Assembly: GCA_913009685.1 (NCBI GenBank)
Contig: CAJVXP010000025.1
Span: 1-34,776 of the forward strand
DNA from: an uncultured Bacteroidota bacterium
GTDB lineage: Bacteria > Bacteroidota > Bacteroidia > Bacteroidales > F082
DNA: 34,776 bases
Reading direction: 5' to 3'
Positions within the stretch are counted from its first letter, which is position 1. Each line of letters opens with the position of its first letter. The position numbers were made by a program, and so were the translations under genes. The notes beneath the pieces are model-generated. The model did not search any database and had not been told where the DNA came from. It saw only the letters and a program-made list of their open reading frames with translations. This document shows positions 7,887 through 25,754 of this stretch, piece after piece.

Positions 7887-9371
<1,485 letters not shown>

Positions 9372-9383
9372 TTAAAGTTTATG

Positions 9384-9391
9384 CAAAAATA
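9384..9391 (-). promoter_or_regulatory. -7 promoter box for the guaB operon
   Basis: TATTTTTG on the minus strand is an exact TAnnTTTG match, 21 bp upstream of the guaB ATG. I see no clear -33 TTG at the usual distance. Confidence 0.45.
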
Positions 9392-9392
9392 T

Positions 9393-9834
9393 CAAAAATC
9401 CGGTATTCTCAGAAAACCTTTTTTGGGAAAAGCCATTTTAACAAGTTTTAACGGAAAAGGCCGGGTTTTTCAGGAGGTTTTGTTTTCCGGATTATTATCC
9501 TACCTTTACAGGCTGCAAAACCGCACCTGAAAACAGACCAGCCTCTTTTTTACCGAAAACAAAAAACCGGCCAACGAAGAACAGAATGATAAACACAATA
9601 AGAATAGGATGTTATCCTGCCTCTGTTTTAGAATGAACTGTAGATTTTGAGGTGATATAGACAAGTTGTGCAGCAGCTTAACGAATAACGAAAATGATTG
9701 ATCATACAAAGACAAAATTAAGTAATTTGAAAAAAACCCGAAATTAGAGGAATTATCCTTGGACTTTTCCTGAAAGGAATCAACTATAACAATGTTATCA
9801 AGCCTAAACCAATGTGCATCTTTACAGCTTAAAA
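9393..9834. other. Intergenic region without a supported gene
   Basis: About 440 bp between the small lipoprotein gene and the guaB promoter. A 110-codon minus-strand frame exists but its composition (many Phe, Leu, Cys, Ser) is that of translated AT-rich noncoding DNA. Only short weak palindromes are visible, such as ATAACA-A-TGTTAT near 9786-9798. Confidence 0.5.
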
Positions 9835-10296
9835 TCATTTTACAATGGTAAACTTACGGGACTTTGAAATGCCATCGCATTCTAATACACCGTTGTACCA
9901 TACCTTGGTAACAATTGAGGCGTTGATATTTTTAGTAAATTCTGCTGTTATAGTGTCTGTGATTTGATCATTCAACTGAAGCAAAGTTGTATCTACTTCC
10001 AGAAAAACACGTAAAAAATATACATGGGTCGAATGGTTTAAGACTATAACAAAATTGTGGGGAATATCATAATTAGGATAATTAACCTCTTTTTTTACCC
10101 CGTCCACTACATTGTAAAGATGCATATTATCGGCTGAAAAATGGTTCGTGGTAGAAGTATTCAGTAAATCCTGTCCCTTTGCGTTTTCGTATGTGATCTC
10201 TGCACCAGTAGAATCAACAAAGGATTTCTCCTTTTTTTTACAACCCGTTACCACCAACAAAGGGATTAGCAAAAATAAAAACAGTATTTTCTTCAT
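9835..10296 (-). CDS. Small lipoprotein of unknown function
   Basis: 153 residues. A strong lipoprotein signal (MKKILFLFLLIPLLVVTGC) with lipidated Cys19 is followed by a lysine-rich tether (KKKEK). The mature part is rich in beta-forming stretches (NFVIVLNHSTHVYFLRVFLEVD) and contains no motif I recognise. The basic residues after Cys are unlike the acidic surface-export signal known from Flavobacteriia/Bacteroides, so retention on the periplasmic face is the more likely location (inference). The gene stands alone, with about 440 bp downstream and about 670 bp upstream free of genes. Confidence 0.75.
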   Translation of the reverse strand: MKKILFLFLLIPLLVVTGCKKKEKSFVDSTGAEITYENAKGQDLLNTSTTNHFSADNMHLYNVVDGVKKEVNYPNYDIPHNFVIVLNHSTHVYFLRVFLEVDTTLLQLNDQITDTITAEFTKNINASIVTKVWYNGVLECDGISKSRKFTIVK

Positions 10297-13489: not shown

Positions 13490-15394
13490 TTACATTACTA
13501 TCATGCCAATAATAAAAACCGTTATAAACAAAATCAAAATATAGGTTACGTAAGTGCTGATTTTACCATTCATCAATACCGAAGCCACTCGTTCTCCGAT
13601 TTTTTTCACCAAACGGGGTAAGGCCGTCATTGGCCGTATTAATACATCCTCCACTTTAATTCTCCTGTACGTCTTATCTTTTATCTCACGGGTTTTATAA
13701 AACCCGCGTAACACATGTTCCAGAATTTGAGAATAGGCTGCCGCACTAAAATATTCCTTCTCTTCGAGTTTTACACCTCCGTTCCATGAATTTACTTTAC
13801 GCACCTTTTTTTTCGTTTTTACGAAAAGGATCACCGGAATAATCAGCAATACCAGCATGATGAGGCCAATAAAAGTTGGAGAGATCACACCAAAAACAGG
13901 TTGCCCGGAGGCGAGCACCAGTGGAGCCGGTATTCCCAAAAGGCCGATGAGCAGGTGAGGAAAACCAAGAAGTATGATAATAAACGGTAACGCAATGCCA
14001 CCCAAAACCAGGATTAATTCAAGACTTAACTCAGCAATGTGCATTAAACGGGAAGGAATTTTAAGGCTTTTTCGGCCATGGTCATATCCCAGGGCGGTAT
14101 AACCAATTAATTTCACCATGGCAAAGCCGATAATTCCTATTGCCAAAGCAATAAATACACCGGCAAGAGCAGAAAAAAACGCCAGGGAAGTGCTCGGAAA
14201 ACGATAGGATTGAAACAGTGTTTCCAACACCATCCATTCGCCTGCATAACCAATCAAAGGAGGGAAAGCACTAAAAGAAAGCGCCGAAATGACAATACCA
14301 AAAGCGGGGATACGTCCTACGCCACTCCATACGCCCCGGGCTTCATCAATAGTATGTACGTTATAGGCCTCTTTGGCATGGCCTATGGACATAAACAACA
14401 ACGTTTTAGAGAATGTGTGGGAAATGGCCATTACAATGGAAGCTGCCTGGGCAAATAAAGCCAGGTAATGCAGGTTGCCGGAGAGAAAATTGCCTGCCAA
14501 AGCATAAAAACCAATGGCAGCCAATATGATACCATTGTTCTCAACTGTAGAATAGGCAGGTAATAATTTTAATTTATTGGTCGCTGCTGCATGCAAACTA
14601 CCCCAAAAAGCAGAAAAAGCTCCAAGCAGAATCAGAATAATATCCCAGGTCTCGTTGTTAGGCAACAGAGGGATAATTCGTTCCAGCCCATATACTCCCA
14701 TCAAAGTTACAGGTGCGCTGAGTAATGCCGCAGTATTATCCGGTATTTCTCCGTAAATACCACGCATCCAGCCATGAAAGGGGACAATGTCCATCTTAAC
14801 AATAAAACCTAAAGAAATCATTACCAAAGCGAAAAGACTTCCTTTGTTCATGCTTTCGAAAGATAAACTACCGGTAGTAAAATATAACGCCGAGAATCCG
14901 ACCAAAAGAAAAACCGTAGAGATTTCACCAAAAGCAAGAAAGCGGTAAGCTTTTTCAAAAGGGTGGTCTCTTCCCATCATCATAAGAAAAGCAAATATGG
15001 TCATTACTTCCCACCCTATCATCAAGGTAAAACCATCTTGTGCAGTCAGTATCAAAACCATGCCGACCAGACTGATGTTGAATCCCAACGGCAAAGTTTT
15101 TTGTGCGTAAAAATTGGAATAATCAATAGAGTATAATGCCAGAGCCATCCAGGAGATGGCAGCAATTACGAGAAATATGGCTGATAAATGGTCGATAGAC
15201 AAAGTGAGGACGAGATTGTGCAACAACGGGTAAGCCCATAATATTTTTGGCTGTGGATGAACCAAAGTATAGCATCCGATAAGAAAAATTCCGATAGAGC
15301 CGGCAAAACCAAAACCATAGCTCAGTTTTATTTTTGAAGAACTGACAGCTCCCCCAATAAACAAACTTAAAGAAAGAAAAAATATAAGTGCCAT
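13490..15394 (-). CDS. Antiporter-like membrane subunit of the hydrogenase-related complex (HyfB/NuoL-like)
   Basis: 634 residues with about 14-16 membrane segments, a proton-translocating Nqo12/NuoL-type subunit closest in layout to HyfB/HycC. The residues that carry protons in this family are kept: Glu129 in GWEVMTIFAF, Lys200 in FIVKMDIVPFHGWM, and His207. The substrate channel region GEIPDNTAALLSAP is also intact. The C-terminus carries a soluble stretch (residues about 525-600, VNSWNGGVKLEEKEYFSAA...) followed by a last helix, as in HyfB. It is the last gene of the operon, 2 bp after the small-subunit gene; in Hyf and Hyc operons this subunit usually comes before the hydrogenase subunits. 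Its presence with conserved charges suggests the complex still moves ions. Confidence 0.9.
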   Translation of the reverse strand: MALIFFLSLSLFIGGAVSSSKIKLSYGFGFAGSIGIFLIGCYTLVHPQPKILWAYPLLHNLVLTLSIDHLSAIFLVIAAISWMALALYSIDYSNFYAQKTLPLGFNISLVGMVLILTAQDGFTLMIGWEVMTIFAFLMMMGRDHPFEKAYRFLAFGEISTVFLLVGFSALYFTTGSLSFESMNKGSLFALVMISLGFIVKMDIVPFHGWMRGIYGEIPDNTAALLSAPVTLMGVYGLERIIPLLPNNETWDIILILLGAFSAFWGSLHAAATNKLKLLPAYSTVENNGIILAAIGFYALAGNFLSGNLHYLALFAQAASIVMAISHTFSKTLLFMSIGHAKEAYNVHTIDEARGVWSGVGRIPAFGIVISALSFSAFPPLIGYAGEWMVLETLFQSYRFPSTSLAFFSALAGVFIALAIGIIGFAMVKLIGYTALGYDHGRKSLKIPSRLMHIAELSLELILVLGGIALPFIIILLGFPHLLIGLLGIPAPLVLASGQPVFGVISPTFIGLIMLVLLIIPVILFVKTKKKVRKVNSWNGGVKLEEKEYFSAAAYSQILEHVLRGFYKTREIKDKTYRRIKVEDVLIRPMTALPRLVKKIGERVASVLMNGKISTYVTYILILFITVFIIGMIVM

Positions 15395-15396
15395 GA

Positions 15397-15867
15397 TTAT
15401 CTTCTTTTTGTTTTACTGATGTCCAATAACAGTCCCAAAATTTGCGAAGGAGACGGTACTCCTGTCAAGGCGGCAACGTGGTTTGGTAATTCGGGATAAT
15501 CCATCAAGCCGGGATGATCCGGAAAATCATCAATTGTTATGATATAAAAAGGTTCAGGAAACTGAGAGATTGTTTCTTTTAAAGGTTCCAGCATGGCTTT
15601 TGCCGGACGCCCCAAGATAAGGAGTACATCGGCATGCCTTGGCGAATCGGTGAAATAAATACCAAAACGATGGATGTTATACTGAGGAGATTCCAGTGCG
15701 TTTATCTCAAAATTCAGTGCGTTGCTGCTCCCCGCATCCAAAATATATATAAACAGCGAGCGGTGAAAAATTTTCGTCGTTGCATTACGCAGTTTTACGG
15801 GAGAAATATATTTCTTTTGCTCCGTCAGCTTTCTTCTTAGTCCGTATAATGGCCACCATTTGATCAT
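15397..15867 (-). CDS. Cysteine-free small subunit (HyfI/HycG/NuoB-like) of the hydrogenase-related complex
   Basis: 156 residues, clearly related to the NuoB/HycG family: YILDAGSSNALNFEINAL aligns with the family's D-x-GSCNxCxxEI-AL, followed by the conserved YNIHRFGIYFTDSPRHADVL block. The protein contains no cysteine at all. The four ligands of the proximal [4Fe-4S] cluster are replaced by Ser48, Leu51, Phe115 (in IDDFP for GDCA) and Val137 (in TGVPSP for PGCPP). No cluster can bind in the usual way. The fold-forming blocks remain and the frame is open, so it looks like a maintained structural subunit rather than a pseudogene. It starts 55 bp after the large-subunit gene. Confidence 0.88.
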   Translation of the reverse strand: MIKWWPLYGLRRKLTEQKKYISPVKLRNATTKIFHRSLFIYILDAGSSNALNFEINALESPQYNIHRFGIYFTDSPRHADVLLILGRPAKAMLEPLKETISQFPEPFYIITIDDFPDHPGLMDYPELPNHVAALTGVPSPSQILGLLLDISKTKRR

Positions 15868-15922
15868 GATATTGATTTGTTAGCTGTTTACTTTTTTGTT
15901 TTATTAAATGACATTTTCGCGG

Positions 15923-17170
15923 TTAACAGGATGCATCGGTAAAATGAATCCCGAAAGAATCAAATATAAAAGGAAAGTCGGTAAATATTGCCCCCTCAAG
16001 GGCGTGCGAAACGGCATGCATTCCGATGTAAGAAGGGGTAAAGGGGTTGACATCCTGCACATTACCATTTTTTACATTCAGATAATATCCCAAAGCGCCA
16101 CTTGGGGAATTTACCACGCTGTAACCTGTTCCCCCGGTCTTGTCTTTGCGTATCTGCGTTTCTTCATTGTCTATCCACGAATCACTTGTACGCAAATGAT
16201 CGATCAGATATTGACAGGAATTTACAATTTCCCCGGCTCTGATTTCCATTCTTGCCAGAGCGTCTCCTCCGCTCTGTGTGATCACGGGAAGGCTGATTAG
16301 ATGACTTGTTGTGGTATTCAGACCATCCTTAATGCCACAAGCCCGTAAAGAGGGGCCGGTTAAGCCCATGCTCTCGGCCATGTCCGGTGTCAGTGTACCG
16401 GAAGTATGTAAGCGATCGAGAAAATTATAGTTGGCAAGGCCGTGTTCGTATAACCTGGTAAAGGTGTTTGCCAGATTTTTGTATCCATCAACTGCTTTTT
16501 GAACTGCCGGGCCGGACGGATTATTGTTTAACCTGCCGATGCTATTGATACCCATTAAATAACGTGATCCGGTCAGCTGCTCGTTTAACCGGAGTGCTTC
16601 TTCAAAAAGAGCACTTAAATGAGCAGCCAGCACCTTTTGTGCCGCAGCCGCAGCAAGTTTGTATATTACATACAAATGGTTGTAAATACGTTCCGCCTCC
16701 AACAAAAGTATGCGCCAGTTCTTTGTCAGCAAAGAGGTTTTTATTTCCAATGCCGTTTCAACAGACTGACTGAAAGCAACAGAATGCGACATAGCAAAAT
16801 TGCTGCATACCCTTTCGGCCATAAGTAAACCTGCTTCCGGCGATGTCATTTGCATCGTGCCTGCCATTTCGCGATACTTCCAACTGAGATCAATCGTTGC
16901 ACGCAAAATTTTCTCGCCATACGTATAAAGCTGAAAAACACCGGCTTCCCGTATACCGGAAGTAACAGGGCCATAGCGGAAACGAAATACCCCGGGGCCG
17001 GTTACGGGATAATCATTAATTTTAAAAGAATGTTTTTTTAAAAAAGAATAATTACCATATATATCTTTCTGATTTTTCCCGTCATCATTTATCAGCATCT
17101 CTTGTCCATCATCAAGAACGTAAAGTTTGTCGCCTTTGCTCGTTGATATTATGCCTATTAATATTTTCAT
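15923..17170 (-). CDS. Large subunit (HyfG/HycE/NuoD-like) lacking the Ni-Fe ligands
   Basis: 415 residues from the ATG at 17170, two bases after the preceding stop; a longer frame to 17260 would overlap the upstream gene by 88 bp. The NuoD/HycE core is recognisable: GPGVFRFRYGPVTSGIREAG, GEKILRATIDLSWKYR, RVCSNFAMSHSVAFSQSVE, LLEAERIYNHLY, and the C-terminal HAVSHALEGAIFTDFP. In HycE the N-terminal ligand pair is CGIC; here it is Cys122-Ser-Asn-Phe125. The C-terminal pair DPCxxC is replaced by GIHFTD (His409, Asp412), so three of the four ligands are gone. The NuoC-like N-terminal domain of HycE/HyfG is reduced to about 55 unrelated residues. A Ni-Fe centre is not expected. Confidence 0.88.
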   Translation of the reverse strand: MKILIGIISTSKGDKLYVLDDGQEMLINDDGKNQKDIYGNYSFLKKHSFKINDYPVTGPGVFRFRYGPVTSGIREAGVFQLYTYGEKILRATIDLSWKYREMAGTMQMTSPEAGLLMAERVCSNFAMSHSVAFSQSVETALEIKTSLLTKNWRILLLEAERIYNHLYVIYKLAAAAAQKVLAAHLSALFEEALRLNEQLTGSRYLMGINSIGRLNNNPSGPAVQKAVDGYKNLANTFTRLYEHGLANYNFLDRLHTSGTLTPDMAESMGLTGPSLRACGIKDGLNTTTSHLISLPVITQSGGDALARMEIRAGEIVNSCQYLIDHLRTSDSWIDNEETQIRKDKTGGTGYSVVNSPSGALGYYLNVKNGNVQDVNPFTPSYIGMHAVSHALEGAIFTDFPFIFDSFGIHFTDASC

Positions 17171-17172
17171 AA

Positions 17173-18546
17173 CTACAAAAGATTTTTTAACAGCATTTCG
17201 AAAAAAGGAATACACAGCAATGAAAGAAATGAAAGTGTCAGATTGACAACCGGAATCCATGTCTCAATTCGCGAATGCCCATTGTACGGCTCATCATGTG
17301 AAGTAAAGATCATTTTGCCCACCTTGAAATTAACCGAAATGAAAGCAATGGCTACAAATATTAACAGAAAAAGCGCTATTCCCCAGCCGTAGCTTGCTAT
17401 CAGTGCCGAAAAGATGAAAAATTCTCCGGCAAAAATACCAAAGGGTGGAGCGCCCGTAACGGCCATGGAAGCCAGGAAAAGAGTGAATGCCGTCCGTGGC
17501 ATCCTGGAAAGCAAGCCGTTGACGCCCTTCATATCTGTGGTATGATAAGCGGTAAGAATATTTCCCGTTAAAAAAAAGATCCCTGATTTTGCCAGACCAT
17601 GAGAAACAATGATAATTCCCGCACCGAGAAGCCCGTATCCTCCGAGGGAAAAGCCGACAAGAATCATTCCCATATTTTCCATGCTCGAATAGGCAAACAT
17701 CCTCTTGTAGTTTCGTTGTACCGCCATCAGTAATGCAGCTGAAATGATGGTAAGGATACCCAATATCATGGAAAATAGCCGTACGGTTACAGATGGGTTG
17801 ATCTGAATCATTCTGTACATGGCGTATAAGGCAACAGGCAACAATACGCCCGAAAAGATAGCACTAACCGGAGACGGCGCTTTCCCGTGAACATCGGGTA
17901 ACCAGGTATGCATGGGGAAAATCCCCGCTTTTGTGCCGAATCCCACAAGCCCCAGTAATGTACCAATCAAAAATACACGGTTCTCAGGATGATGTATAAT
18001 TAATTCATGCATACTTAGCGTTCCTGCCGAACCATAAATAAAGGTCATGGAGATAAGAGAAATTGCCAAACCTACCGAAACAATAATGACATACCGCCAT
18101 GCCGACTCTATCGAAACCTGATCGTTTTCCGTAGCAACCAGCAAAGCACTACTTACCGTAGTAGCCTCAATGCCAACCCAAATTAATCCCAGATTATCTA
18201 CTACCACCGAAAAAAACATGGCTGCGACAAAAATATTCATCAAAAAATAATAAAGCCGATATTGAAATAAGAAATTCTTTTTCCGCTTAAAATAAGCCAT
18301 TGAGTAAAGGACTGTACTGAAATAGACAAGAGCAATGGTAAGCATTAATAATTTCGACAATCCGTCCACATAAAAAAAGTTGTCTGTATAATTGGGCTGA
18401 AAAAGGAGATAAACAGCAGCGGCCAACGATAAAAACGAAACCAATACCGATACGGTTCTTTCCAGATAGCGAACAGGTATAATACATAAAACAGCTCCCG
18501 AAAGGCTAAAAAGTAAAGGAAGCAAATACATGATGTGCTGATTCAT
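17173..18546 (-). CDS. Antiporter-like membrane subunit (HyfF/NuoN-M-like)
   Basis: 457 residues, about 14 membrane helices, proton-translocating Nqo13/14 family. Key charges are retained: Glu127 in LIWVGIEATTVSSALL, Lys206 in GTKAGIFPMHTWLPDVHGKAPSPVSA with His213, His220 and Lys222, and the later GLAKSGIFFLTGN. It matches HyfF in length and in its place between the HyfE-like and HyfG-like genes. It follows the HyfE-like gene by 14 bp and is followed after two bases by the large-subunit gene, so translation is likely coupled. It probably forms one of the ion paths of the complex. Confidence 0.9.
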   Translation of the reverse strand: MNQHIMYLLPLLFSLSGAVLCIIPVRYLERTVSVLVSFLSLAAAVYLLFQPNYTDNFFYVDGLSKLLMLTIALVYFSTVLYSMAYFKRKKNFLFQYRLYYFLMNIFVAAMFFSVVVDNLGLIWVGIEATTVSSALLVATENDQVSIESAWRYVIIVSVGLAISLISMTFIYGSAGTLSMHELIIHHPENRVFLIGTLLGLVGFGTKAGIFPMHTWLPDVHGKAPSPVSAIFSGVLLPVALYAMYRMIQINPSVTVRLFSMILGILTIISAALLMAVQRNYKRMFAYSSMENMGMILVGFSLGGYGLLGAGIIIVSHGLAKSGIFFLTGNILTAYHTTDMKGVNGLLSRMPRTAFTLFLASMAVTGAPPFGIFAGEFFIFSALIASYGWGIALFLLIFVAIAFISVNFKVGKMIFTSHDEPYNGHSRIETWIPVVNLTLSFLSLLCIPFFEMLLKNLL

Positions 18547-18560
18547 AACTTGATGGTTTT

Positions 18561-19217
18561 TTATCCCCGTAATTCAGTATTATAATTATCCCCTTCATGA
18601 AGAATTGTGTTTTCCCTCACCCGCATTATCAAACTGGAGACGACTACCAATCCCAGAAGATCCAAAATGACTCCTGCTTCCACGATAAAGGGCAATCCTC
18701 CGAAGACCCATCCCGAAAGCATGACTACCGCATTTTCCATTACCAAAAACCCAATCATTTGAATATAAGCATGTTTATGTGTGATGATGAGTAATGAAGC
18801 TTGCAAAAACAAGGCAATCGGCACAGACCCCGACTTGACTTTTAATATTCCATATAAACTGCCCTGATAAAGAAAATAACTAAGCATAATCAGTCCGAGG
18901 GAAACCAGGATAGATCCGCCAATTCCCATTATGGGTTTATCTTCGCGTACACGCCACGGCTTTTCGTGTAACCGGTGCAGCGCTTTGTTTATTATAACAG
19001 GAATTGTTATTCCGCGAACAACAACTGTAAGACCTGCCAGGACAAACAGCAAATATTCTTCCTGGGGATTTCTTAATCCCAGCAGTACCAGAAAAATAGC
19101 GACGATAAAAGAGGAAATGGCAAATAATACTATCGTACTTTTCACATATACTTCCCACTGCATGAACAATGTCAGAACGATAAGCAGGAATCCCAATATC
19201 TCAAATATTTGATCCAT
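18561..19217 (-). CDS. HyfE-like (NuoK-related) membrane subunit
   Basis: 218 residues with about seven hydrophobic segments. The hallmark membrane glutamates of the HyfE/NuoK type are present: Glu161 in GFLVMENAVVM and Glu180 in PFIVEAGVILDLLG. The 218-residue length equals the usual HyfE size rather than the roughly 100 residues of NuoK. It lies 7 bp after the HyfC-like gene. Its likely role is part of the ion-conducting arm linking the NuoH-like subunit to the antiporter-like subunits. Confidence 0.88.
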   Translation of the reverse strand: MDQIFEILGFLLIVLTLFMQWEVYVKSTIVLFAISSFIVAIFLVLLGLRNPQEEYLLFVLAGLTVVVRGITIPVIINKALHRLHEKPWRVREDKPIMGIGGSILVSLGLIMLSYFLYQGSLYGILKVKSGSVPIALFLQASLLIITHKHAYIQMIGFLVMENAVVMLSGWVFGGLPFIVEAGVILDLLGLVVVSSLIMRVRENTILHEGDNYNTELRG

Positions 19218-19224
19218 TATATTA

Positions 19225-20169
19225 TTATTGCATTATGTAATAAGCTAAACTTGCAAGAAACGCCAAAGCAAAAGCAACTGCCAGAAAATCAAAGTTCTTA
19301 TACAAACGAAATTTTGAGACCGTTGTATTTATAAGAGCAAAAACAATGATAAGCCCCAATAACTTTAAAAGATGGATTCCCATGTAAACAATTATACTCA
19401 GAAAACCACTGTGTGCCAGCGGTACGCCAAAGGGAATCATGTAAACATTCAGAAATACACTCATTAAAATGAAGACTTTCATATAAGAGGCCCATTTATA
19501 GACTGCCAGGTCCTGTCCGCTATATTCAAAGGGCATTGCCTGGTCTATCATCCCCAGTTCTCCGTTGGTGTGCGATTCTATGGGTAATTGTCCGGTTTCA
19601 ATAAGCAAAACCATAAAAAAAGCAGCGGATACAAAGCCATGTACAAGAGAAAAATACCACTGTGGAGAACTTCTAAGTACATTATTGATTACAAACGGGT
19701 TATTGGTATTGGACAAAACGCCCAGCATAATAAATATTAATACGGTAATCGGTTCGGCAAGTGCCCCAATGCTTGCGGCCCGCGAAGTTCCCAAATGTGC
19801 ATAGTTGCTTCGGCTGTCAATAGCGGAAAACTTTTTGATAGCAGCAGCAGCGCCAAAGAAAAGTCCTCCACCGATAAAATCGGCAGCAGGTGCATAGGCC
19901 AAAGGAAAAGCAGTGATAATAGGAAGAATCATCGCCAAAAAGGCGTAAAGCATAAGTACAAAATAAGGACCAAACCGGAAAACAGGGGAAGAGACCAAAG
20001 GTACCAGACTCTCTTTACGAAAAAGTTTTGCCAGATCGTAATAGGGCTGAAAAACAGATGGTCCCTGTTTGGATTCTATACGTTCTTCAATGGCCCGCTG
20101 CACACCAATTACAAGTGGTGCGGCAAGAGCCACATAAAGTATCTCTATAAAACTATATAAGTATAACAT
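19225..20169 (-). CDS. HyfC/EchB-like (NuoH-related) membrane anchor subunit
   Basis: 314 residues, eight or so helices, first gene of the six-gene operon. NuoH/HyfC landmarks include the cytoplasmic loop RAIEERIESKQGPSVFQPYYDLAKLFRK in two blocks (about 25-52), and ESHTNGELGMIDQAMPFEYSG, which carries the acidic residues of the quinone/E-channel region in complex I. This subunit normally holds the hydrophilic module to the membrane and passes conformational change to the antiporter-like subunits. The start codon at 20169-20167 lies at the edge of a perfect 11-bp inverted repeat in the leader. Confidence 0.9.
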   Translation of the reverse strand: MLYLYSFIEILYVALAAPLVIGVQRAIEERIESKQGPSVFQPYYDLAKLFRKESLVPLVSSPVFRFGPYFVLMLYAFLAMILPIITAFPLAYAPAADFIGGGLFFGAAAAIKKFSAIDSRSNYAHLGTSRAASIGALAEPITVLIFIMLGVLSNTNNPFVINNVLRSSPQWYFSLVHGFVSAAFFMVLLIETGQLPIESHTNGELGMIDQAMPFEYSGQDLAVYKWASYMKVFILMSVFLNVYMIPFGVPLAHSGFLSIIVYMGIHLLKLLGLIIVFALINTTVSKFRLYKNFDFLAVAFALAFLASLAYYIMQ

Positions 20170-20219
20170 AACTCTTACTAAAAAGTGATTAATCTAATCA
20201 TCATTTATGTAAGAGTTAT
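20168..20219 (-). promoter_or_regulatory. Leader hairpin that captures the start codon of the hydrogenase-related operon
   Basis: ATAACTCTTAC (20168-20178) and GTAAGAGTTAT (20209-20219) form a perfect 11-bp inverted repeat separated by 30 nt. The A and U of the first start codon (20169-20167) are the last two bases of the 3' arm in the mRNA. The loop holds a second perfect repeat, TGATTA/TAATCA (20186-20191 and 20195-20200), and an 8-codon reading frame (MMIRLITF, 20204 down to a stop at 20178). It could act as an RNA switch on translation or, as DNA, as a paired operator. Function is inference. Confidence 0.6.
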
Positions 20220-20277
20220 CGGTTGCGAATTACAACATTTGGGTGAACTCTACCACCACGTCTTTTAAGAATTTCGG

Positions 20278-20306
20278 CAAAAGTAATATTTTTTTATACA
20301 TACAAA
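20278..20306 (-). promoter_or_regulatory. Promoter of the hydrogenase-related operon
   Basis: On the minus strand, TTTG (20306-20303), 17 bp, then TACTTTTG (20285-20278), an exact TAnnTTTG box. The spacing lies within the range known for Bacteroidota promoters. Transcription would start near 20274, giving a leader of about 105 nt that contains the hairpin. Confidence 0.55.
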
Positions 20307-20460: not shown

Positions 20461-22869
20461 TTAAAACTGCACACTTGCTCCCAACCGTACATTGAAAGGA
20501 TTACCCGGCGTAAAGTGCAATTCATCAACGGGTTTCCGCTCCCATTTCATGCGGGTTTCCGTGTCAAACTGTGCTTCGTTCCATTGGGTGTTGAGCAGGT
20601 TTTCAATGGCAACGGAGAGAGTGTATTTCTTCCAGTGGTAAGATGCTCCGAGATTGATCAACGTATAACCCAAAGCGGTTACCGTATTGTCTTCGTTAGC
20701 CGGCCGGCTGCCGATGTGGATAGTGCGTAGCGAAACATCAAATCCGTGGTAGTCCGCCATGGTTATTCCTCCCGTCAGGGTAAAATTGGGTGCCAGCGGA
20801 ATATAGTTACTGCCTTTTGGAAGACCGTTGATTCTGCCTTGCGAAAGTGTCATGTCGGCGTCGGCCCAAAGCCATCGGGTGATTTTCAATCTTCCTTCAC
20901 AGTCCAGTCCCAGACGTTGTGTGGGATTGCTTAACTCGGAATATCCGCCGTCGCCCACATATACAAACTCTTTGTCGAGGTACATGTACCAAACTGCCAT
21001 CCCCAGATTCAGCCGTTTGAACAATTCGGTACGGAAACCTGTCTCGGCTCCGTAAGCTCTGGGCATGGTTCCGGTGAATTGCTGTTGCGGGTCAAAATTA
21101 TGTTTTATCAGCCAATCGGATATTTCTTTTTCACTTCGTCCTTCACGAACCATAACCTGCTCTATTTCTTTTGCTTTTTGTGTGAATATGACGTTACGTG
21201 CATCGTTGGAATGAAATCCGGTACCGGCATTGAAATAAATATCCACCTTGGACGAAGGGCTGAAAACAACATTGAATTTCGGATTGAGCATGCCTTGCTG
21301 GGCATATCCCGAAGCATGTGGTAAACCGTTGGAAAGGGTGTCGCCGGCACTTCCCAGGTGGTCGTCTACGTTGTAGGTAATGTAGTTACCCCTAAGTCCA
21401 ATTTCGATACGCCAGTGTTGATTGAAAATAATTTTGCTTTGTCCCCAGACATACAGGTTTGTTTCGTTGATACCGGCATTCGACAGCGCATTCATCCGGA
21501 TACGATTGGGACTGTGCCACAGGGCAGACTGAATAGCATCGTTGCGAAATCCCGCACCCAGGGTGTTGATAAAGATAACCGAACCCTTTTTCCGGTGAAT
21601 CTGATAAGTAGCATTCATTCCGCTGAGCCACCGGCTTTCGTTTTGTTCAATCATATCGCCGTTAACCGTATCCATCAGATAATAAGTAAAATCGGAAAAA
21701 AGTTTGAAGGTGTAACGGGTAAGATATGCCTGTAAATGAAACGCATGGTTATCTTGTTTTTTATCATATACCAGCGACATGTTTTCCCGGGAGGTTGTGC
21801 CGCCTTCCATAGGGTCTAATGCCCCAAACCGGTCGATAATACCGGCTTTTACTACCCGCTCAGGCACCTGTCCCGAAGCATTCCAGGCAGAATTGAATCC
21901 GTTAACAGTAAAGGTCAGCCTGCTTTGCTGGGTTATGTTGATAAAGTATTTTCCGAATATGTTGAGCCGTTTCAGGTTCTGAGGATTATCAAAAGGGCCA
22001 TCGGTAGCGTAATATTGCGCGGCAAGGATGCCATTTTGCCGGGCATTGCCTTTTCCTGTTTGCAACAGCAGGGTGGTCTTCAGAGTGTTAAATTGTCCGA
22101 TTTCCAAATGAAAACTGTTGCTTTTTAAAATATCTTTGGTTTTGAAAGCAATGGCGCCTGCAGTGGCAAAATCACCAAAACGGGCAAAATAGGGGCCTTT
22201 GTAAATGGAAAGGTTGCCGATAATCTCCGGGATTAGATAATGCAGGTCGGCATAACCCTGTCCGTGGGCATGGCTTACCATGTTTACGGGAATACCATCC
22301 ACGGAGATATTTACATCCGTGCCGTGGTCGCAATCGAACCCACGGAGAAATATTTGCTCTGCCTTACCACCACCGGCATGCTGTGCAATAATGAGCCCCG
22401 GGACCAGCTTTAATAAATCTTGTGACGATTTTACCGGTCTCAGCTCCAGGTCGATGCTTCGGATGGCCTGTGACGAGGCTATGGAAAACGGTCGTTTGGC
22501 CGTTACGGTCAGGTCACTCATATCAAAAGCAGCAGGTTGCATTCTGACTAACAAAGCTGTGGTTTTATTTGCAGATACCTTCACCACGAGTTGTAGTGTT
22601 TTGTACCCCAGATGCGAAAAAGCCAATGTGTATGTTCCCACTTCGATACCGTGGATCTGGAATTTCCCTTGCAAATCGCTGGTAGTGCCTATCAGACTTT
22701 TCTCGACAACAATGTTAGCAAAAGAAATTTCGTTTCCGGTTTTTGCATCAAGCAACTTGCCCGCAACGGAACCCCATGAATGAGCCATTACCGGTTGAAA
22801 AAATAAAACAAATGTCAAACTCATTAACCATGTTTTGACTGAGCGGGAAAATAATGTAAATATTACCAT
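20461..22869 (-). CDS. TonB-dependent outer-membrane receptor, probably for a nickel complex
   Basis: 802 residues: signal peptide (about 1-29, cleavage near VMAHS), a CarboxypepD_reg-like beta-sandwich domain (about 33-115: SVAGKLLDAKTGNEISFANI), a plug domain (about 130-245: SSQDLLKLVPGLII, QIFLRGFDCDHGTDVNISVDGIP, SHAHGQGYADLHYLIPE), and a beta-barrel ending in a C-terminal Phe. Energised by TonB-ExbBD, it imports a ligand across the outer membrane. The gene starts 33 bp after nikR on the same strand, and the Cbi-type nickel/cobalt transporter is nearby, so nickel is the likely cargo; this is an inference from context. The His/Asp-rich plug segments (DCDHGTD, SHAHGQG) fit a metal ligand. 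Confidence 0.85.
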   Translation of the reverse strand: MVIFTLFSRSVKTWLMSLTFVLFFQPVMAHSWGSVAGKLLDAKTGNEISFANIVVEKSLIGTTSDLQGKFQIHGIEVGTYTLAFSHLGYKTLQLVVKVSANKTTALLVRMQPAAFDMSDLTVTAKRPFSIASSQAIRSIDLELRPVKSSQDLLKLVPGLIIAQHAGGGKAEQIFLRGFDCDHGTDVNISVDGIPVNMVSHAHGQGYADLHYLIPEIIGNLSIYKGPYFARFGDFATAGAIAFKTKDILKSNSFHLEIGQFNTLKTTLLLQTGKGNARQNGILAAQYYATDGPFDNPQNLKRLNIFGKYFINITQQSRLTFTVNGFNSAWNASGQVPERVVKAGIIDRFGALDPMEGGTTSRENMSLVYDKKQDNHAFHLQAYLTRYTFKLFSDFTYYLMDTVNGDMIEQNESRWLSGMNATYQIHRKKGSVIFINTLGAGFRNDAIQSALWHSPNRIRMNALSNAGINETNLYVWGQSKIIFNQHWRIEIGLRGNYITYNVDDHLGSAGDTLSNGLPHASGYAQQGMLNPKFNVVFSPSSKVDIYFNAGTGFHSNDARNVIFTQKAKEIEQVMVREGRSEKEISDWLIKHNFDPQQQFTGTMPRAYGAETGFRTELFKRLNLGMAVWYMYLDKEFVYVGDGGYSELSNPTQRLGLDCEGRLKITRWLWADADMTLSQGRINGLPKGSNYIPLAPNFTLTGGITMADYHGFDVSLRTIHIGSRPANEDNTVTALGYTLINLGASYHWKKYTLSVAIENLLNTQWNEAQFDTETRMKWERKPVDELHFTPGNPFNVRLGASVQF

Positions 22870-22902
22870 TTTGAAATTAGTGTTACTTATGTATAAAAAA
22901 AA

Positions 22903-23304
22903 TTAGTCGCTTCCTGCAATTACAAGGGTTCCGTATTGAATCCCTTTAAGTGAAATCAATTGCCGGGCCAGCATTTCCAAATCATTGGCTTTGCCTTTTA
23001 CTGCCAAGGTCTCCAGACAGTTTTCGTGGTCCAAATGAACATGCTGAACAGACAAAATGAGGTCGTGATAATCATGCTGTAAGTGTGTTGATTGTGTTTG
23101 CAGTTCTCTTTGATGATGGTTGTAAATCAAAATGATGGCTCCGGCCACGACTTTGTTCACTTCCCGATCCTTTTTAATGGTTTCCTTATTGATTAAATAC
23201 CGGATGGTTCGCGACCTGTTGGGGAACTGATGGTCCAGGGTTATGTTGTCAAGTTTGTCCAGTAGTTTTTTTTCTATGGAAATACTAAATCGTGATACGT
23301 ACAT
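22903..23304 (-). CDS. nikR: Nickel-responsive transcriptional regulator NikR
   Basis: 133 residues, the usual NikR length. The N-terminal ribbon-helix-helix DNA-binding part is VSRFSISIEKKLLDKLDNI...FPNRSRTIRYLI (residues 3-38). The C-terminal ACT-like tetramerisation domain carries the high-affinity nickel site: His88, His90 and Cys96 in QHVHLDHENCLE, plus His77 from the partner subunit. These align with E. coli His87, His89, Cys95 and His76. With nickel bound, NikR usually represses nickel uptake genes. It is followed by the TonB receptor gene in the same operon and is probably autoregulated; candidate repeats lie upstream. Confidence 0.96.
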   Translation of the reverse strand: MYVSRFSISIEKKLLDKLDNITLDHQFPNRSRTIRYLINKETIKKDREVNKVVAGAIILIYNHHQRELQTQSTHLQHDYHDLILSVQHVHLDHENCLETLAVKGKANDLEMLARQLISLKGIQYGTLVIAGSD

Positions 23305-23533
23305 ATTTTTGGTTTTTATTCAAAATAAACAGGGTGAATGGTCTGTGTGAATTGTTTGTGGTTTTTGGCACAAAAAAGTGTGAAATTGGCAACATGCCAC
23401 CGTGAATGGTTGTTTTTTCCCGGGGCGCGTAGAAACGGGCAACAGAAAGCTGGCTTATGTTTTGGCGCTGAATATCTCTCTTCAACATCTTTTTTCCAAT
23501 TTTACACGAAATTAATTTTTGTCTTTTTTCCGG
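23305..23533 (-). other. Long nikR leader with GTGAA-type repeats
   Basis: If transcription starts at the -7 box at 23534-23541, nikR has a leader of about 225 nt with no supported gene. On the plus strand it contains GTGAATGG at 23334-23341 and 23402-23409, and GTGTGAA at 23345-23351 and 23378-23384 (33 bp apart); another GTGTGAA is at 23548-23554. A small hairpin TGGCA-ACA-TGCCA lies near 23386-23398. No riboswitch class is recognised. Confidence 0.45.
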
Positions 23534-23541
23534 CAAAAGTA
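23534..23541 (-). promoter_or_regulatory. -7 promoter box of nikR
   Basis: TACTTTTG on the minus strand. The surrounding 16 bases (CGGCAAAAGTAATATT on the plus strand, 23531-23546) are identical to those at the hydrogenase-related operon promoter (20275-20290). Confidence 0.5.
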
Positions 23542-23556
23542 ATATTAGTGTGAATA

Positions 23557-23600
23557 TATTAACAGTAATTACAAAAGAATTTGTAAATTTATTAACAGTA
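23557..23600. repeat. Direct repeat pair with central inverted repeat upstream of nikR
   Basis: TATTAACAGTA occurs at 23557-23567 and 23590-23600, exactly 33 bp apart. Between them is a perfect inverted repeat TTACAAA-AGAA-TTTGTAA (23569-23586) centred almost at the midpoint. The first copy sits about 16 bp upstream of the -7 box, overlapping the -33 region. A near copy, TATGAACAGTA, lies at 24229-24239 in the leader of the nickel transporter. It is a candidate NikR operator; NikR binding is inference. Confidence 0.5.
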
Positions 23601-23753
23601 TAAATAAGCTTTGATAACAGGACTAAATTGAGGAGAAGCGATTCGATGGAATCCGGTGATGGAATGTATTGTTGTCGTGATGCGGAAATTGAAGCGGGTT
23701 GTATTTTTAATATGCAGGAACAAGTGGATGGAAAGGAGCGGAGAGAGGATGGT

Positions 23754-24053
23754 CTATTTGGCGTTGGGTCTGACAATCACATAGATATCTTCGTTGTCTT
23801 TTCTCATGAAATATTTTTCGCGGGCATATTTTTCCAGTTGGAGGGTGTCGTATTTCAAGGCATTCAGAGCGCTTTTATTATTTTTGATTTCAGTTTTGTA
23901 AAAATGTTTTTGTTGTTCGAGGCGATCAATTTTATTACTCAGCCTCATCTGCTCACGAAGATTATCACTGTCGAAGAACACCATCCAAATAATGAATGCC
24001 AGCCCGGTGTAGAAATAGCGGTTATTAATATGTTTTAGAAAAAAGCGCGTCAT
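23754..24053 (-). CDS. ftsB: FtsB/DivIC-type septum formation protein
   Basis: 99 residues: short cytoplasmic start, one membrane helix (about 15-27, YTGLAFIIWMVFF), then a leucine-zipper-like coiled coil (SNKIDRLEQQKHFYKTEIKN) and the terminal motif KYAREKYFMRKDNEDIYVI typical of DivIC/FtsB (the YAREKYxMKKxxEdvyvi block). It is a bitopic divisome protein expected to pair with FtsL/FtsQ homologues. The start at 24053 (MTRFFLKH) is set by the family's length and by a -7 box at 24062-24069, which lies inside any longer frame. It is transcribed alone, divergent from the nickel transporter; there is no functional link to its neighbours. Confidence 0.9.
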   Translation of the reverse strand: MTRFFLKHINNRYFYTGLAFIIWMVFFDSDNLREQMRLSNKIDRLEQQKHFYKTEIKNNKSALNALKYDTLQLEKYAREKYFMRKDNEDIYVIVRPNAK

Positions 24054-24061
24054 TGTACTTG

Positions 24062-24069
24062 CAAAAGTA
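24062..24069 (-). promoter_or_regulatory. -7 promoter box of ftsB
   Basis: TACTTTTG on the minus strand, ending 8 bp before the ATG at 24053. The predicted leader is only about 5 nt, and the box rules out the upstream in-frame Met at 24203. Confidence 0.5.
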
Positions 24070-24219
24070 ACTGAATTGACAGCAGAAAAACCTGCATTTC
24101 GAAAATTTTTATAAGCGGGGTTGTTAACAAAAGGAGGGGGTAGCCCTTGCCGGCATCTCAAAATAATATTTAGCAAATAATGTTCAATTTCGGGTAAATC
24201 CACTAATTTTGACTCGAAA

Positions 24220-24227
24220 TAAATTTG
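24220..24227 (+). promoter_or_regulatory. -7 promoter box of the nickel transporter operon
   Basis: TAAATTTG, an exact TAnnTTTG match 30 bp upstream of the ATG at 24258. Directly downstream (24229-24239) is TATGAACAGTA, one mismatch from the direct repeat found upstream of nikR, well placed for repression. Confidence 0.45.
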
Positions 24228-24257
24228 TTATGAACAGTATTGATTAAAGAATGATAT

Positions 24258-25754
24258 ATGCACATCCCCGACGGATATATTTCACCAAAAGTTTTTGTGC
24301 CTTTTTATTTGCTGTTTATCCCTTTGTTTGTAAAAGGGATAAAGAAACTTCGTCAACAGTTGGATGCGGAAGTGTTACCCCTGTTGTCATCTTTGACCGC
24401 CTTGTCTTTTATTATAATGATGTTTAACATCCCGATTCCAGGCGGCACCAGCGGACACGCTCTTGGCGCTGCACTCATTGCCATCATATTCGGTCCCTGG
24501 GCAGGATTCATGGCAATATGTCTTGTGCTTTTGTTACAGGCGTTGCTGTTTGGTGATGGAGGCATCACGACCTACGCTATTAATGCAATAGCAATGGGAT
24601 ATGTCGCCTCTTTTTCAGGATATTACACGTATAAACTGCTTAAAAATAAAATTTCAGAAAAGTTAAATTACTTTCTTTCCGGCTGGGTTAGCATTGTGTT
24701 GGCTTCGGTGGTTGTTGCCATTGTTCTCGGCATAGAACCTTACATTGCTAAAGATGTCAGTGGAGTCCCTGTTTATTTTCCTTATGGCTTAAAAGTTACC
24801 CTGCCTGCTATTGTGGGGTCTCACATGCTGTTTTTTGGTGTTGTAGAAGGGGTCTTTACTTTGTTTGGAGTTTCCTATTTTAAACGTTATTTTGATATTG
24901 GGCAGGGTTATAAAACCATCGGGGTCAAAAAGGAAACTTCCGATATTTTTCTGTTTTTCATTGTTGTTTTACTCATTATGCTGCTCGTGCCCTTGGGATT
25001 AATAACGGGAAACCCGGCGTGGGGCGAGTGGAATCTGAGCTTCTTTCATGAAAATCTGGGGTTTATTCCACAGGGAATAAAAAGCTTTTCGGCGTTTTAT
25101 TCTGCGCCATTATCCGACTACTCTTTACCCGGAATAAGCGCCATAGCTTCCTATTATCTTTCGGCTATTTTAGCGATTTTCATTACGACTTTTATATTTT
25201 ATCTCTTTTCCCGTAAAAGAAATGTTCTTTTTGACAAATTATTCTTTGTTAATTATTTGCTTGTAATTTTTGCTGTTGTGGTATCTTCGAACCTCTACTT
25301 CATATCCTTTCTTTTGGTTATCGCCTTATTGCTCTCGGGAAAAGATATTTTTAAATTGATGTGGAGAACACTTGCTGCCATTTTCGTTTTTAACCTTCTG
25401 TCTTCAGTATATTTCATAATTACTAAAAATTACACGAGCCTGGTAGTTTTTAATTTACGCACTTTCACCATCTTGTATTTTACTTTGCTTGCCGGGAAAA
25501 AATTAAATCTGTTTGCCATTTTTAGCTTTTCGCCATTTATAAGTTATACTTTGACGCTGGCTTATAGTCAAATTATGAATTACCTGACAACTTACGAGCA
25601 AATGAAACAGGCACTGGACAGCAGAATAGTAAAGAAAATTACATTATTGAATTCCTATCACATTCTGGGATATCAGATTAGCTTGTTTATAAAGAAATCA
25701 ATTGAAAATTCAAAAGAGATAACGCAGGCAATAAATTCAAGGACCATAATATGA
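24258..25754 (+). CDS. cbiM: Fused nickel/cobalt ECF transporter protein (CbiM-NikL/CbiN-like-CbiQ)
   Basis: 498 residues. Residues 1-215 are a CbiM/NikM substrate-binding protein: the N-terminus MHIPDGYIS and GGTSGHALG supply Met1, His2 and His67, the residues that coordinate Ni2+ in characterised NikM. Residues about 230-300 (VPLGLITGNPAWGEW, LGFIPQG) match the NikL/PDGLE-type auxiliary domain, which otherwise is a separate CbiN/NikL protein or a CbiM extension. Residues about 300-498 are a CbiQ-like transmembrane coupling protein with a degenerate coupling motif (EQMKQALDSRI). Having all three membrane parts in one chain is unusual. The stop overlaps the start of the ATPase gene by 4 bp (ATGA). 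Nickel rather than cobalt is favoured by the nikR neighbourhood. Confidence 0.88.
   Translation: MHIPDGYISPKVFVPFYLLFIPLFVKGIKKLRQQLDAEVLPLLSSLTALSFIIMMFNIPIPGGTSGHALGAALIAIIFGPWAGFMAICLVLLLQALLFGDGGITTYAINAIAMGYVASFSGYYTYKLLKNKISEKLNYFLSGWVSIVLASVVVAIVLGIEPYIAKDVSGVPVYFPYGLKVTLPAIVGSHMLFFGVVEGVFTLFGVSYFKRYFDIGQGYKTIGVKKETSDIFLFFIVVLLIMLLVPLGLITGNPAWGEWNLSFFHENLGFIPQGIKSFSAFYSAPLSDYSLPGISAIASYYLSAILAIFITTFIFYLFSRKRNVLFDKLFFVNYLLVIFAVVVSSNLYFISFLLVIALLLSGKDIFKLMWRTLAAIFVFNLLSSVYFIITKNYTSLVVFNLRTFTILYFTLLAGKKLNLFAIFSFSPFISYTLTLAYSQIMNYLTTYEQMKQALDSRIVKKITLLNSYHILGYQISLFIKKSIENSKEITQAINSRTII

Follow-up and report, generated by a model that had tools for sequence, protein, structure and literature searches.

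A redox-free Ehr-type operon of Bacteroidales and its probable place in a fluoride-associated subfamily

The stretch of DNA analysed here (the window) comprises 34,776 nucleotides of contig CAJVXP010000025.1, from the uncultured Bacteroidales assembly GCA_913009685.1 (GTDB F082), and carries on its minus strand, at positions 13490-20169, a six-gene operon related to group 4 hydrogenases and complex I. The six open reading frames (ORFs) follow the order C-E-F-G-I-B, named after the Hyf subunits that their products resemble, and are preceded by a conserved leader RNA. With a probability of about 0.62, this operon represents the Bacteroidota branch of a fluoride-associated Ehr subfamily, that is, a redox-free, ion-translocating complex placed under a fluoride-type leader and serving fluoride or pH homeostasis. 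We infer that, in this clade at least, the complex known as the "formate hydrogenlyase" of the fluoride regulon translocates ions as an Ehr complex and is not a redox enzyme. A first-pass annotation of the same DNA had proposed an ion pump, antiporter or gradient sensor; ion transport is still the most plausible function, whereas the role was left generic and the fluoride context was missed, the leader adjoining the annotated interval just outside it. The papers cited below are cited from excerpts.

The link to fluoride comes from plasmid-borne relatives. A tblastn search of plasmids matched 188 records with the large subunit and 83 with HyfC, and seven regions were fetched, among them three of the six best HyfC matches (H31, H33 and H35; H34 and H36 score as H33 and H35). 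The HyfC-like matches in Mycobacterium branderi, Burkholderia and Caballeronia, at 37-40%, are closer to the window than the Bacteroidota Ehr proteins compared, and the window HyfC is 36.5-38.1% identical to these three loci (L192-L194) vs at most 33.7% to the other relatives listed. All three show the order C-E-F-G-I-B, by annotation in M. branderi (L192), by profile hidden Markov models in Caballeronia (L193) and with HyfF unannotated in B. cenocepacia (L194). A certified fluoride riboswitch lies directly upstream of HyfC in Burkholderia (55.9 bits) and Caballeronia (50.7 bits), while in M. branderi one of 40.9 bits stands before a NUDIX gene that is followed by HyfC. Altogether, 18 fluoride riboswitches at the Rfam gathering level were found across L192, L193, L194 and L196, and none in the three other plasmid Ehr loci (L195, L197 and L198), ordinary members of the family with the order B-C-E-F-G-I. 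The genes around the operon, namely a universal stress protein, a histidine phosphatase, a mismatch-repair-type protein, enolase and DUF190 in L192, and MutS, dynamin, an inorganic diphosphatase, a HAD hydrolase and DUF190 in L194, fit fluoride resistance. In the B. cenocepacia plasmid, the unannotated HyfF appears to be split over two frames (L194, 9916-12544). A further locus, L196 of Alicyclobacillus, holds a lone Ehr-type large subunit (8435-10137) behind its own certified fluoride riboswitch, with CrcB-family and DUF190 genes nearby and six fluoride riboswitches in 19 kb.

These relatives group with the window operon in phylogeny as well. In a concatenated tree of 27 rows from chosen loci, built without L196, which offers a large subunit alone, and without the L194 HyfF, the window clade and L192-L194 fall together in a single 10-row group with a support of 100 in the SH-like approximate likelihood ratio test (SH-aLRT). 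Rooted on E. coli Hyf, this group lies inside Ehr, with SH-aLRT values of 96 and 100 on the path. The earlier assignment as an Ehr-type relative is borne out by this nesting, by the six subunit kinds and by the broken set of Ni-Fe ligands. We define the subfamily by the C-E-F-G-I-B order, by membership in this tree group and by a fluoride-type 5' leader; the window operon fits, the leader of the Bacteroidota members being fluoride-like only.

The leader is present at all eight loci having upstream sequence (the window, the Paludibacter locus L056 and six more genomes of the genus, G003 among them) and looks like a dedicated switch of this operon. The consensus of seven copies contains the helices P1, P2 and P3, and the start codon has its A and U paired in 7/7; in the window the loop of P1 can form all six pairs of a pseudoknot with the downstream strand AACTCT. 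Six leaders folded singly were more stable than their shuffles (z-scores -2.5 to -5.2); the minimum-free-energy fold of the window leader (z-score -4.36) pairs the start-codon A and U within P3. In the single folds, P1, P2 and a P3 reaching the AUG were recovered for the window, L035 and L036; L037 shows these helices but leaves out the AUG, and L039 and L056 favour other pairings in the 5' part. Among the seven copies, 9 of the 22 pairs of the nested form have changed on both sides, as have 7 of 16 in the pseudoknotted form, including three of the six pseudoknot pairs. Both structures reach a covariation score of 0.286 vs shuffled means of 0.178 and 0.177, a value attained by 0/500 shuffles in either case, and controls with slid structures score at most 0.113 and 0.164. 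A covariance model built from the seven copies (R1) found the eighth leader at the HyfC start of G003, with 57.9 bits. The same model listed nothing beyond the operon leaders in 12 genomes of the genus (E up to 1), nothing at 26 other Ehr, hydrogenase and Nuo loci (E up to 5), seven leaders in 172 genomes of the family, all in this genus, and, in 295 genomes of the order, nothing besides the leader of the window and a false two-strand match between convergent genes in G036. The motif TACTTTTG next to the leader is a putative -7-type promoter box of the Bacteroidota kind.

As to the identity of this RNA, the leader was detected by Rfam in short stretches only, where the fluoride riboswitch family RF01734 had the lowest E-value for L056 (21.8 bits, E 2.4e-4) and L039 (21.0 bits, E 5.5e-4) and gave 15.0 bits (E 0.078) for the leader of L036; it was not detected in the window at the gathering level, nor, with E up to 1, in related loci totalling 61 kb. 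Since its scores lie under the gathering cut-off, the leader is not classed as a certified RF01734 member. All eight leaders display a P1 with 3-4 of 4 pairs, an 8-nt loop, a pseudoknot with 5-6 of 6 pairs and the bases A40, U41 and U48, and in these features as in R49 and Y50 they agree with 17 certified copies; the match is partly by construction, the placement having been chosen to best show exactly these features. Positions 6 and 38, which were not scored in the placement, are G6/C38 in 8/8 leaders vs A6/U38 in 17/17 certified copies. The position numbering and the long-range A6-U38 pair follow the crystal structure, and the change to G6/C38 would be compensatory if the two bases pair. The A40-U48 pair is the linchpin of the riboswitch, and a U41A copy is unresponsive (PMC8752731, PMC11077080). 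In its fold, linchpin pair and pseudoknot the leader resembles the fluoride riboswitch. That it is instead a variant riboswitch for another ligand, its specificity altered by G6-C38, is rather improbable: the exchange at these two positions and the weak RF01734 scores would be explained, but operons of the same group stand under certified fluoride riboswitches elsewhere, the linchpin pair and U41 are retained, and downstream of the operon lie enolase, dynamin and MutS_V genes in L056.

The loss of redox centres in the window operon is extensive. The first-pass annotation had read a small subunit devoid of cysteine and a large subunit deprived of three of four Ni-Fe ligands, and both the cysteine count and the alignments agree. 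Aligned with group 4 hydrogenases and NuoB, the four cluster slots of the small subunit are S48, L51, F115 and V137; this subunit is cysteine-free in 7/8 sequences of the clade, the eighth (L057) having one Cys beside a ligand column, and GSSNALNFE is invariant across all 8. In the large subunit, the first Ni-Fe Cys is retained (C122) and the remaining three slots are F125, H409 and D412. The His of the GPxH motif is replaced by Thr, and the Asp of DPC is also gone. The operon thus has neither the four Ni-Fe Cys nor the proximal [4Fe-4S] ligands of a group 4 [NiFe] hydrogenase or formate hydrogenlyase, and of complex I it has no N2 cluster Cys, no GPxH His and no NuoEFG among its neighbours. 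The earlier annotation had excluded the usual electron transfer, and electron transfer via the complex's own cofactors indeed looks impossible. Within the fluoride group, the proximal ligands are kept in Caballeronia and Burkholderia, lost in Mycobacterium, which retains a ferredoxin-like motif, and all lost in Bacteroidota; none of the aligned members has more than one of the four Ni-Fe Cys. Since the ligand state varies within the group, the fluoride role seems not to depend on electron transfer. A hidden redox complex, fed with electrons by a partner encoded elsewhere or by a quinone reacting without a cluster, is hard to reconcile with the window clade, which, besides its missing ligand-column cysteines, GPxH His and DPC Asp, has no recurring redox protein beside the operon in the 8 loci (ORFs of at least 90 aa). 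We consider it very unlikely, in spite of the ligands kept in Caballeronia and Burkholderia and of the usual view that Ehr relatives couple redox chemistry to ion transport (PMC6349859).

The emptied pocket has raised another alternative. C122, H129, H409 and D412 are invariant in the 8 large subunits of the Bacteroidota clade, and three of them sit in Ni-Fe ligand slots, so that they could form a non-redox metal site in Bacteroidota only. The complex might accordingly be an enzyme driven by the proton-motive force, holding a metal such as zinc and catalysing hydration or hydrolysis, for which DAB2, whose complex I-like subunit drives a Cys2His zinc site, is a precedent (PMC13144422). Such an enzyme is quite doubtful: L192-L194 lack C122, H409 and D412 (H129 is kept in 2/3, and M. 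branderi has a Cys in the H409 slot), and the site cannot explain the subfamily.

The loss of the proximal cluster is not confined to this clade. Among Bacteroidota Ehr complexes, all four Ni-Fe Cys are lost in the 15 large subunits read, and 8 of the 16 readable Ehr-type small subunits miss 3 or 4 of the 4 proximal ligands; the cluster is intact in L121, L122, L123, L125, L126, L127, L133 and L134, while L040-L044, L046, L051 and L131 keep one ligand or none. The count leaves out three mis-extracted proteins (the L124 and L130 small subunits and the L127 large subunit), and L129 is without a small subunit. By parsimony on the 27-row tree, the state of the proximal cluster changes at least 5 times. 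The absence of proximal ligands, which had been taken as the distinguishing trait of the operon, thus does not distinguish it, and uniqueness of a zero-cysteine system was rejected because other Ehr small subunits have repeatedly lost cluster ligands too. On these alignments, loss of the proximal cluster appears as a recurrent trend, carried furthest in the window clade. L041-L044, L046, L051 and L131 form a Bacteroidales Ehr group with the proximal cluster lost, and those displayed retain a ferredoxin-like N-terminal domain with one apparent [4Fe-4S] motif. L040 (G047:C386) is a separate cofactor-poor Ehr operon of order I-B-C-E-F-G, whose small subunit has kept one ligand-column Cys and has no ferredoxin-like domain. 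L040 as founder of a conserved second cofactor-poor clade was unsupported, the other matches read in a 6-genome family being ordinary Ehr or Nuo.

HyfB E129/K200, HyfF E127/K206 and HyfE E161/E180, which the earlier annotation had listed as retained, are invariant in 7 or 8 aligned sequences (7 for HyfE). Of the Mrp-type charges, the Glu of transmembrane helix 5 (TM5), the TM7 Lys and the TM12-type Glu are present in both antiporter-like subunits. As a correction to the earlier reading, the TM8 Lys is missing, being Leu in 8/8 HyfB-like subunits, and the corresponding HyfF-like position is Pro. The HyfB-type TM8 Lys is present in E. coli HyfB and HycC and in all Bacteroidota Ehr HyfB-type subunits of the same alignment. 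The HyfB TM8 position is Asn in L192-L194, and also in L198, which lies outside the fluoride group; the replacement is a hint of an altered ion path common to the group.

These observations suggest a mechanism in which the leader, descended from a fluoride riboswitch, would control translation. With ligand bound, the P1-loop pseudoknot would hold the 5' strand of the start-codon helix and leave the AUG free; without ligand, this strand would mask the AUG. This direction of the switch is proposed because the two structures are mutually exclusive. Hydrogen fluoride (HF) crosses membranes, dissociates inside and lowers both the pH and the proton-motive force (PMC11139923). HF entering as a weak acid would acidify the cytoplasm and run down the proton-motive force, and the Bacteroidota leader, if it still senses fluoride with the ligand as its ON signal, would have the complex made on demand. 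Once assembled, the complex would move ions via HyfB, HyfF, HyfE and HyfC; H+/Na+ or H+/K+ exchange (or F-/H+ exchange) is the most likely mode, with the former hydrogenase arm retained as a scaffold or gate. With no redox input, the complex could work solely by running down a gradient already in place. A part in pH homeostasis has been suggested for Ehr (PMC6688271), and Na+/H+ antiporters are the second most common target of fluoride riboswitches after exporters (PMC11139923). The latter ranking also speaks for a direct exporter, a third kind beside Fluc and CLC-F that would carry F- or HF out at the expense of the proton-motive force; the fluoride-type control and gene context favour it too, and it would need no redox centre. 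This alternative is nonetheless unlikely, given that no anion path is known in this fold, that the conserved groups are those of cation and proton carriers, and that a CrcB-family gene near the relative L196 already covers export there. More boldly, and only tentatively, a complex I-family machine working without electron transfer might have become a dedicated fluoride-defence transporter, produced once fluoride is sensed and drawing on the proton-motive force through its hydrogenase-derived subunits to expel F- or HF directly or to swap the protons that come in for cations.

The operon is under clear selective constraint. Of the 12 genomes of the genus, 6 have the whole operon, namely that of the window and five more. 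The operon also occurs in two Paludibacter metagenome-assembled genomes at 56-80% identity, one of which (L057) lacks the upstream end, and on a 5 kb contig of a seventh genus genome, G003, the leader and HyfC are followed by part of HyfE, where the contig ends. The orthologues of the five other genus genomes are 63-84% identical (63-69% for the large subunit), and the operon is far from chance for that reason. Gene starts agree among the genus copies, lengths stay within two codons, and all six genes are open in the 6 complete copies. Ratios of nonsynonymous to synonymous change (Nei-Gojobori dN/dS) for the closest pair, G011/G004, are 0.049 for C, 0.057 for E, 0.035 for F, 0.126 for G, 0.084 for I and 0.069 for B; the other pairs, with a synonymous divergence (pS) of about 0.7-0.85 in comparisons with the window, are near saturation. 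Decay was rejected on the basis of these values and of the six intact genes, and the operon is maintained, as had been supposed. A dead remnant kept by chance would accord with the long stem branch of the clade, but against such constraint and a covarying leader its probability is negligible. High-scoring large subunits occur in 6/173 genomes of the family, all in this genus, while six more family matches of about 60 bits are other relatives. The 393 genomes sampled from the order and the 395 from the phylum contain only the window's own large subunit, the next best scoring 157.6 and 158.9 vs 790 bits. A pattern-seeded scan of a collection of 84,980 species, which reaches close relatives only and may have left out the window's own record, gave 6 loci.

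Several points weigh against the fluoride reading. The window's own leader is not listed for RF01734 at E up to 10; all leaders stay under the gathering score of 34, the best having 21.8, and that of G002 reaches just 15 bits (E 0.078-0.23). A second model (R2), built from the 17 certified copies, gave L039 an E-value of 1.1 and L056 one of 2.0, beneath two spurious matches, listed no other leader and had no significant match in 38 sources, which counts against a fluoride-riboswitch identity on score alone. The 27-row tree is a quick search with no bootstraps and one outgroup, in which the branches of L192, L195 and the outgroup were flagged as long. Trees without the plasmid relatives put the clade beside Ehr on a very long stem; one of them used the 28/34 loci that had five or more of the six subunits, three Nuo loci having been excluded beforehand. 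The loss of the HyfB TM8 Lys alters the ion path and leaves exchange uncertain, and Geobacter Ehr has been treated as nonfunctional (PMC13194489). The window's own flanking genes are not fluoride genes and include nickel/cobalt uptake genes. Finally, certified fluoride riboswitches occur in 5/7 operon-bearing vs 1/5 operon-less genomes of the genus, numbers too small for a test, and none in G000 exceeds the cut-off.

The link to fluoride recurs in Bacteroidota: besides the enolase, dynamin and MutS_V genes downstream of the operon in L056, a MutS_V gene follows it in L039, and the certified fluoride riboswitches of the genus precede a dynamin gene in five genomes (Pfam-checked in L163, alike at the start in four more) and a Na+/H+ exchanger in a sixth. 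Two further matches to RF01734, which score about 31 bits and narrowly miss the cut-off, lie near a short ORF and upstream of a 299-aa ORF (L174 in G011 and L175 in G004). Neighbours shared among the 8 operon loci are those of the close pairs L037/L038 and L056/L057, together with MutS-domain proteins, which are found near the operon in the window (31818-34427, 11 kb off), L039 and L056. The nickel/cobalt uptake cluster of the window (20461-26500) comprises a TonB-dependent receptor (20461-22869), a protein with a NikR C-terminal domain (22903-23304) and CbiM with an ABC ATPase (24258-26500); it is not shared by the other 7 loci compared, and a simple pattern found no NikR-like site in the window. 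On the G002 contig, a cobalamin riboswitch of 88.1 bits, over the cut-off, lies upstream of the operon (L054, 633-807, minus strand).

The features of the operon and its leader are collected in the table. The six-gene structure described by the first-pass annotation was recovered from ORFs, Pfam and NCBIfam, with intergenic gaps of 7, 14, 2, 55 and 2 bp along the operon; the subunit assignments agree between Pfam and NCBIfam, though mostly under NCBIfam curated cut-offs. The products are the equivalents of EhrA, B, C, D, L and S (HyfB, C, E, F, G and I). Best matches in PDB are subunit 4 of E. coli formate hydrogenlyase (FHL) for the HyfC-like protein (7z0s_D, 6e-34) and MbhJ for the small subunit (6cfw_J, 1.1e-14); the large subunit matches HycE (7z0s_E, 2.6e-22) and MbhL (6cfw_L, 2.9e-19), and the HyfB-like protein HycC (7z0s_C, 6.9e-29). 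The small subunit scores 15.9 bits against PF01058, under the Pfam cut-off of 27, and is without the N-terminal ferredoxin-like domain that most Ehr relatives have. The start of the large subunit was set at the ATG at 17170, the mechanical ORF start at 17260 being judged too far upstream; its N-terminus is about 80-150 residues shorter than in most Ehr relatives, whose extra stretch looks like a NuoC/HycE-type domain. Structure prediction of single subunits from 7-row alignments gave confidence scores (pLDDT) of 36.9 for the large and 55.9 for the small subunit, too low for pocket geometry.

Table. Positions of the operon genes and leader elements in the window
Feature	Position	Strand	Details
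HyfC/NuoH-like membrane anchor (EhrB-type)	19225..20169	-	314 aa; first gene of the operon; PF00146 91.9 bits
HyfE-like membrane subunit (EhrC-type)	18561..19217	-	218 aa; NF008556 7.5e-10, below cut-off
HyfF-like antiporter-type subunit (EhrD-type)	17173..18546	-	457 aa; PF00361 180 bits; NF005042 1.2e-121, below cut-off
Large subunit (HyfG/NuoD/EhrL-type)	15923..17170	-	415 aa; PF00346 64 bits
Small subunit (HyfI/NuoB/EhrS-type)	15397..15867	-	156 aa; NF005012 1.2e-11, below cut-off
HyfB-like antiporter-type subunit (EhrA-type)	13490..15394	-	634 aa; last gene; NF005046 3.2e-103, below cut-off
Conserved leader RNA, fluoride-riboswitch-like	20167..20261	-	95 nt; ends in the HyfC start codon; covariance model R1 84.5 bits, not independent because this leader is one of the building sequences of R1
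Leader P1 hairpin	20242..20257	-	GGTG, 8-nt loop, CACC; loop positions 3-8 are the pseudoknot strand
Leader P2 hairpin	20222..20236	-	from folding and consensus
Pseudoknot 3' strand AACTCT	20212..20217	-	pairs alternatively with the P1 loop or the start-codon region
P3 3' strand	20167..20178	-	includes the HyfC ATG, 20169-20167
TACTTTTG, candidate -7-type promoter box	20278..20285	-	directly upstream of the leader; three T columns invariant in 7 loci

The function of Ehr is described as unknown in the literature, and the window clade makes it directly testable. Formate hydrogenlyase genes behind fluoride riboswitches have been an oddity, read as a metabolic shift in a review (PMC11139923). On the bolder reading as a dedicated fluoride-defence transporter, "formate hydrogenlyase" would be a misnomer for an ion transporter of the fluoride regulon, and recurrent cluster loss would show that redox chemistry is unneeded for the fluoride job. 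The proposed fluoride role, if true, would have complex I-type subunits working without electrons in a response to stress, offer a naturally uncoupled system for studying the ion path by itself, and add to the fluoride riboswitches a start-codon-masking variant with a changed tertiary pair.

Among known systems, the Ehr complexes (Geobacter ehrABCDLS and kin) share with the window the same six subunit kinds and a likewise broken set of Ni-Fe ligands. The HyfC-like protein bears an Ehr-type insertion of 3 residues, LGMIDQAMPFEYSG, which is common to 13/13 Bacteroidota Ehr HyfC proteins and missing in 6/6 Hyf, Hyc, Nuo and hydrogenase homologues. In contrast to Ehr, the window complex has no Fe-S ligand, no ferredoxin-like domain, a shorter large subunit, the order C-E-F-G-I-B and a fluoride-type leader. 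Ehr has been described as having lost its Ni-Fe ligands and as being of uninvestigated or unknown function (PMC6349859, PMC3569383, PMC6688271, PMC13194489, PMC7894505, PMC10284858), and the Geobacter proteins are abundant during growth on formate (PMC7894505).

The crcB motif was found to precede mutS and formate hydrogen lyase genes (Weinberg 2010, PMC2864571), and the latter were counted in 2024 among the commonest fluoride-riboswitch-associated enzymes and filed under metabolic acclimation (PMC11139923); formate hydrogen lyase is also named in PMC8004769, and a fluoride operon of eno, uspA, ppaC and crcB has been given as an example (PMC5533749). Among the open-licence titles and abstracts listed by the searches, none links the fluoride-regulon complex to Ehr or to the loss of redox centres. 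The plasmid members of this fluoride-riboswitch-associated "formate hydrogenlyase" compared here, which share gene order and tree group with the window and have certified riboswitches, are the loci fetched in this work and may differ from those in published crcB-motif lists (Weinberg 2010; Baker 2012, cited in PMC11139923); as aligned they are no formate hydrogenlyase, with at most one Ni-Fe Cys (third slot, M. branderi). The leader is like RF01734 in P1, P2, the pseudoknot, the A40-U48 linchpin and U41, and differs in G6/C38 for A6/U38, in its sub-cut-off scores and in the start-codon-masking helix, many crcB RNAs carrying transcription terminators (PMC2864571).

E. coli FHL (covered in PMC9474812), Mbh, Mbs and complex I share a homologous core with the window complex. 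FHL and Mbh are among its best PDB matches. All four carry Fe-S chains, and FHL and Mbh also carry Ni-Fe. DAB2, a carbonic anhydrase driven by the proton-motive force, and the Mrp antiporters employ complex I-type membrane subunits with no redox chemistry, as the window complex does, and differ from it in their soluble partner; DabB2 is without the ion-pair motifs (PMC13144422), whereas the window complex keeps its pairs of TM5 Glu and TM7 Lys.

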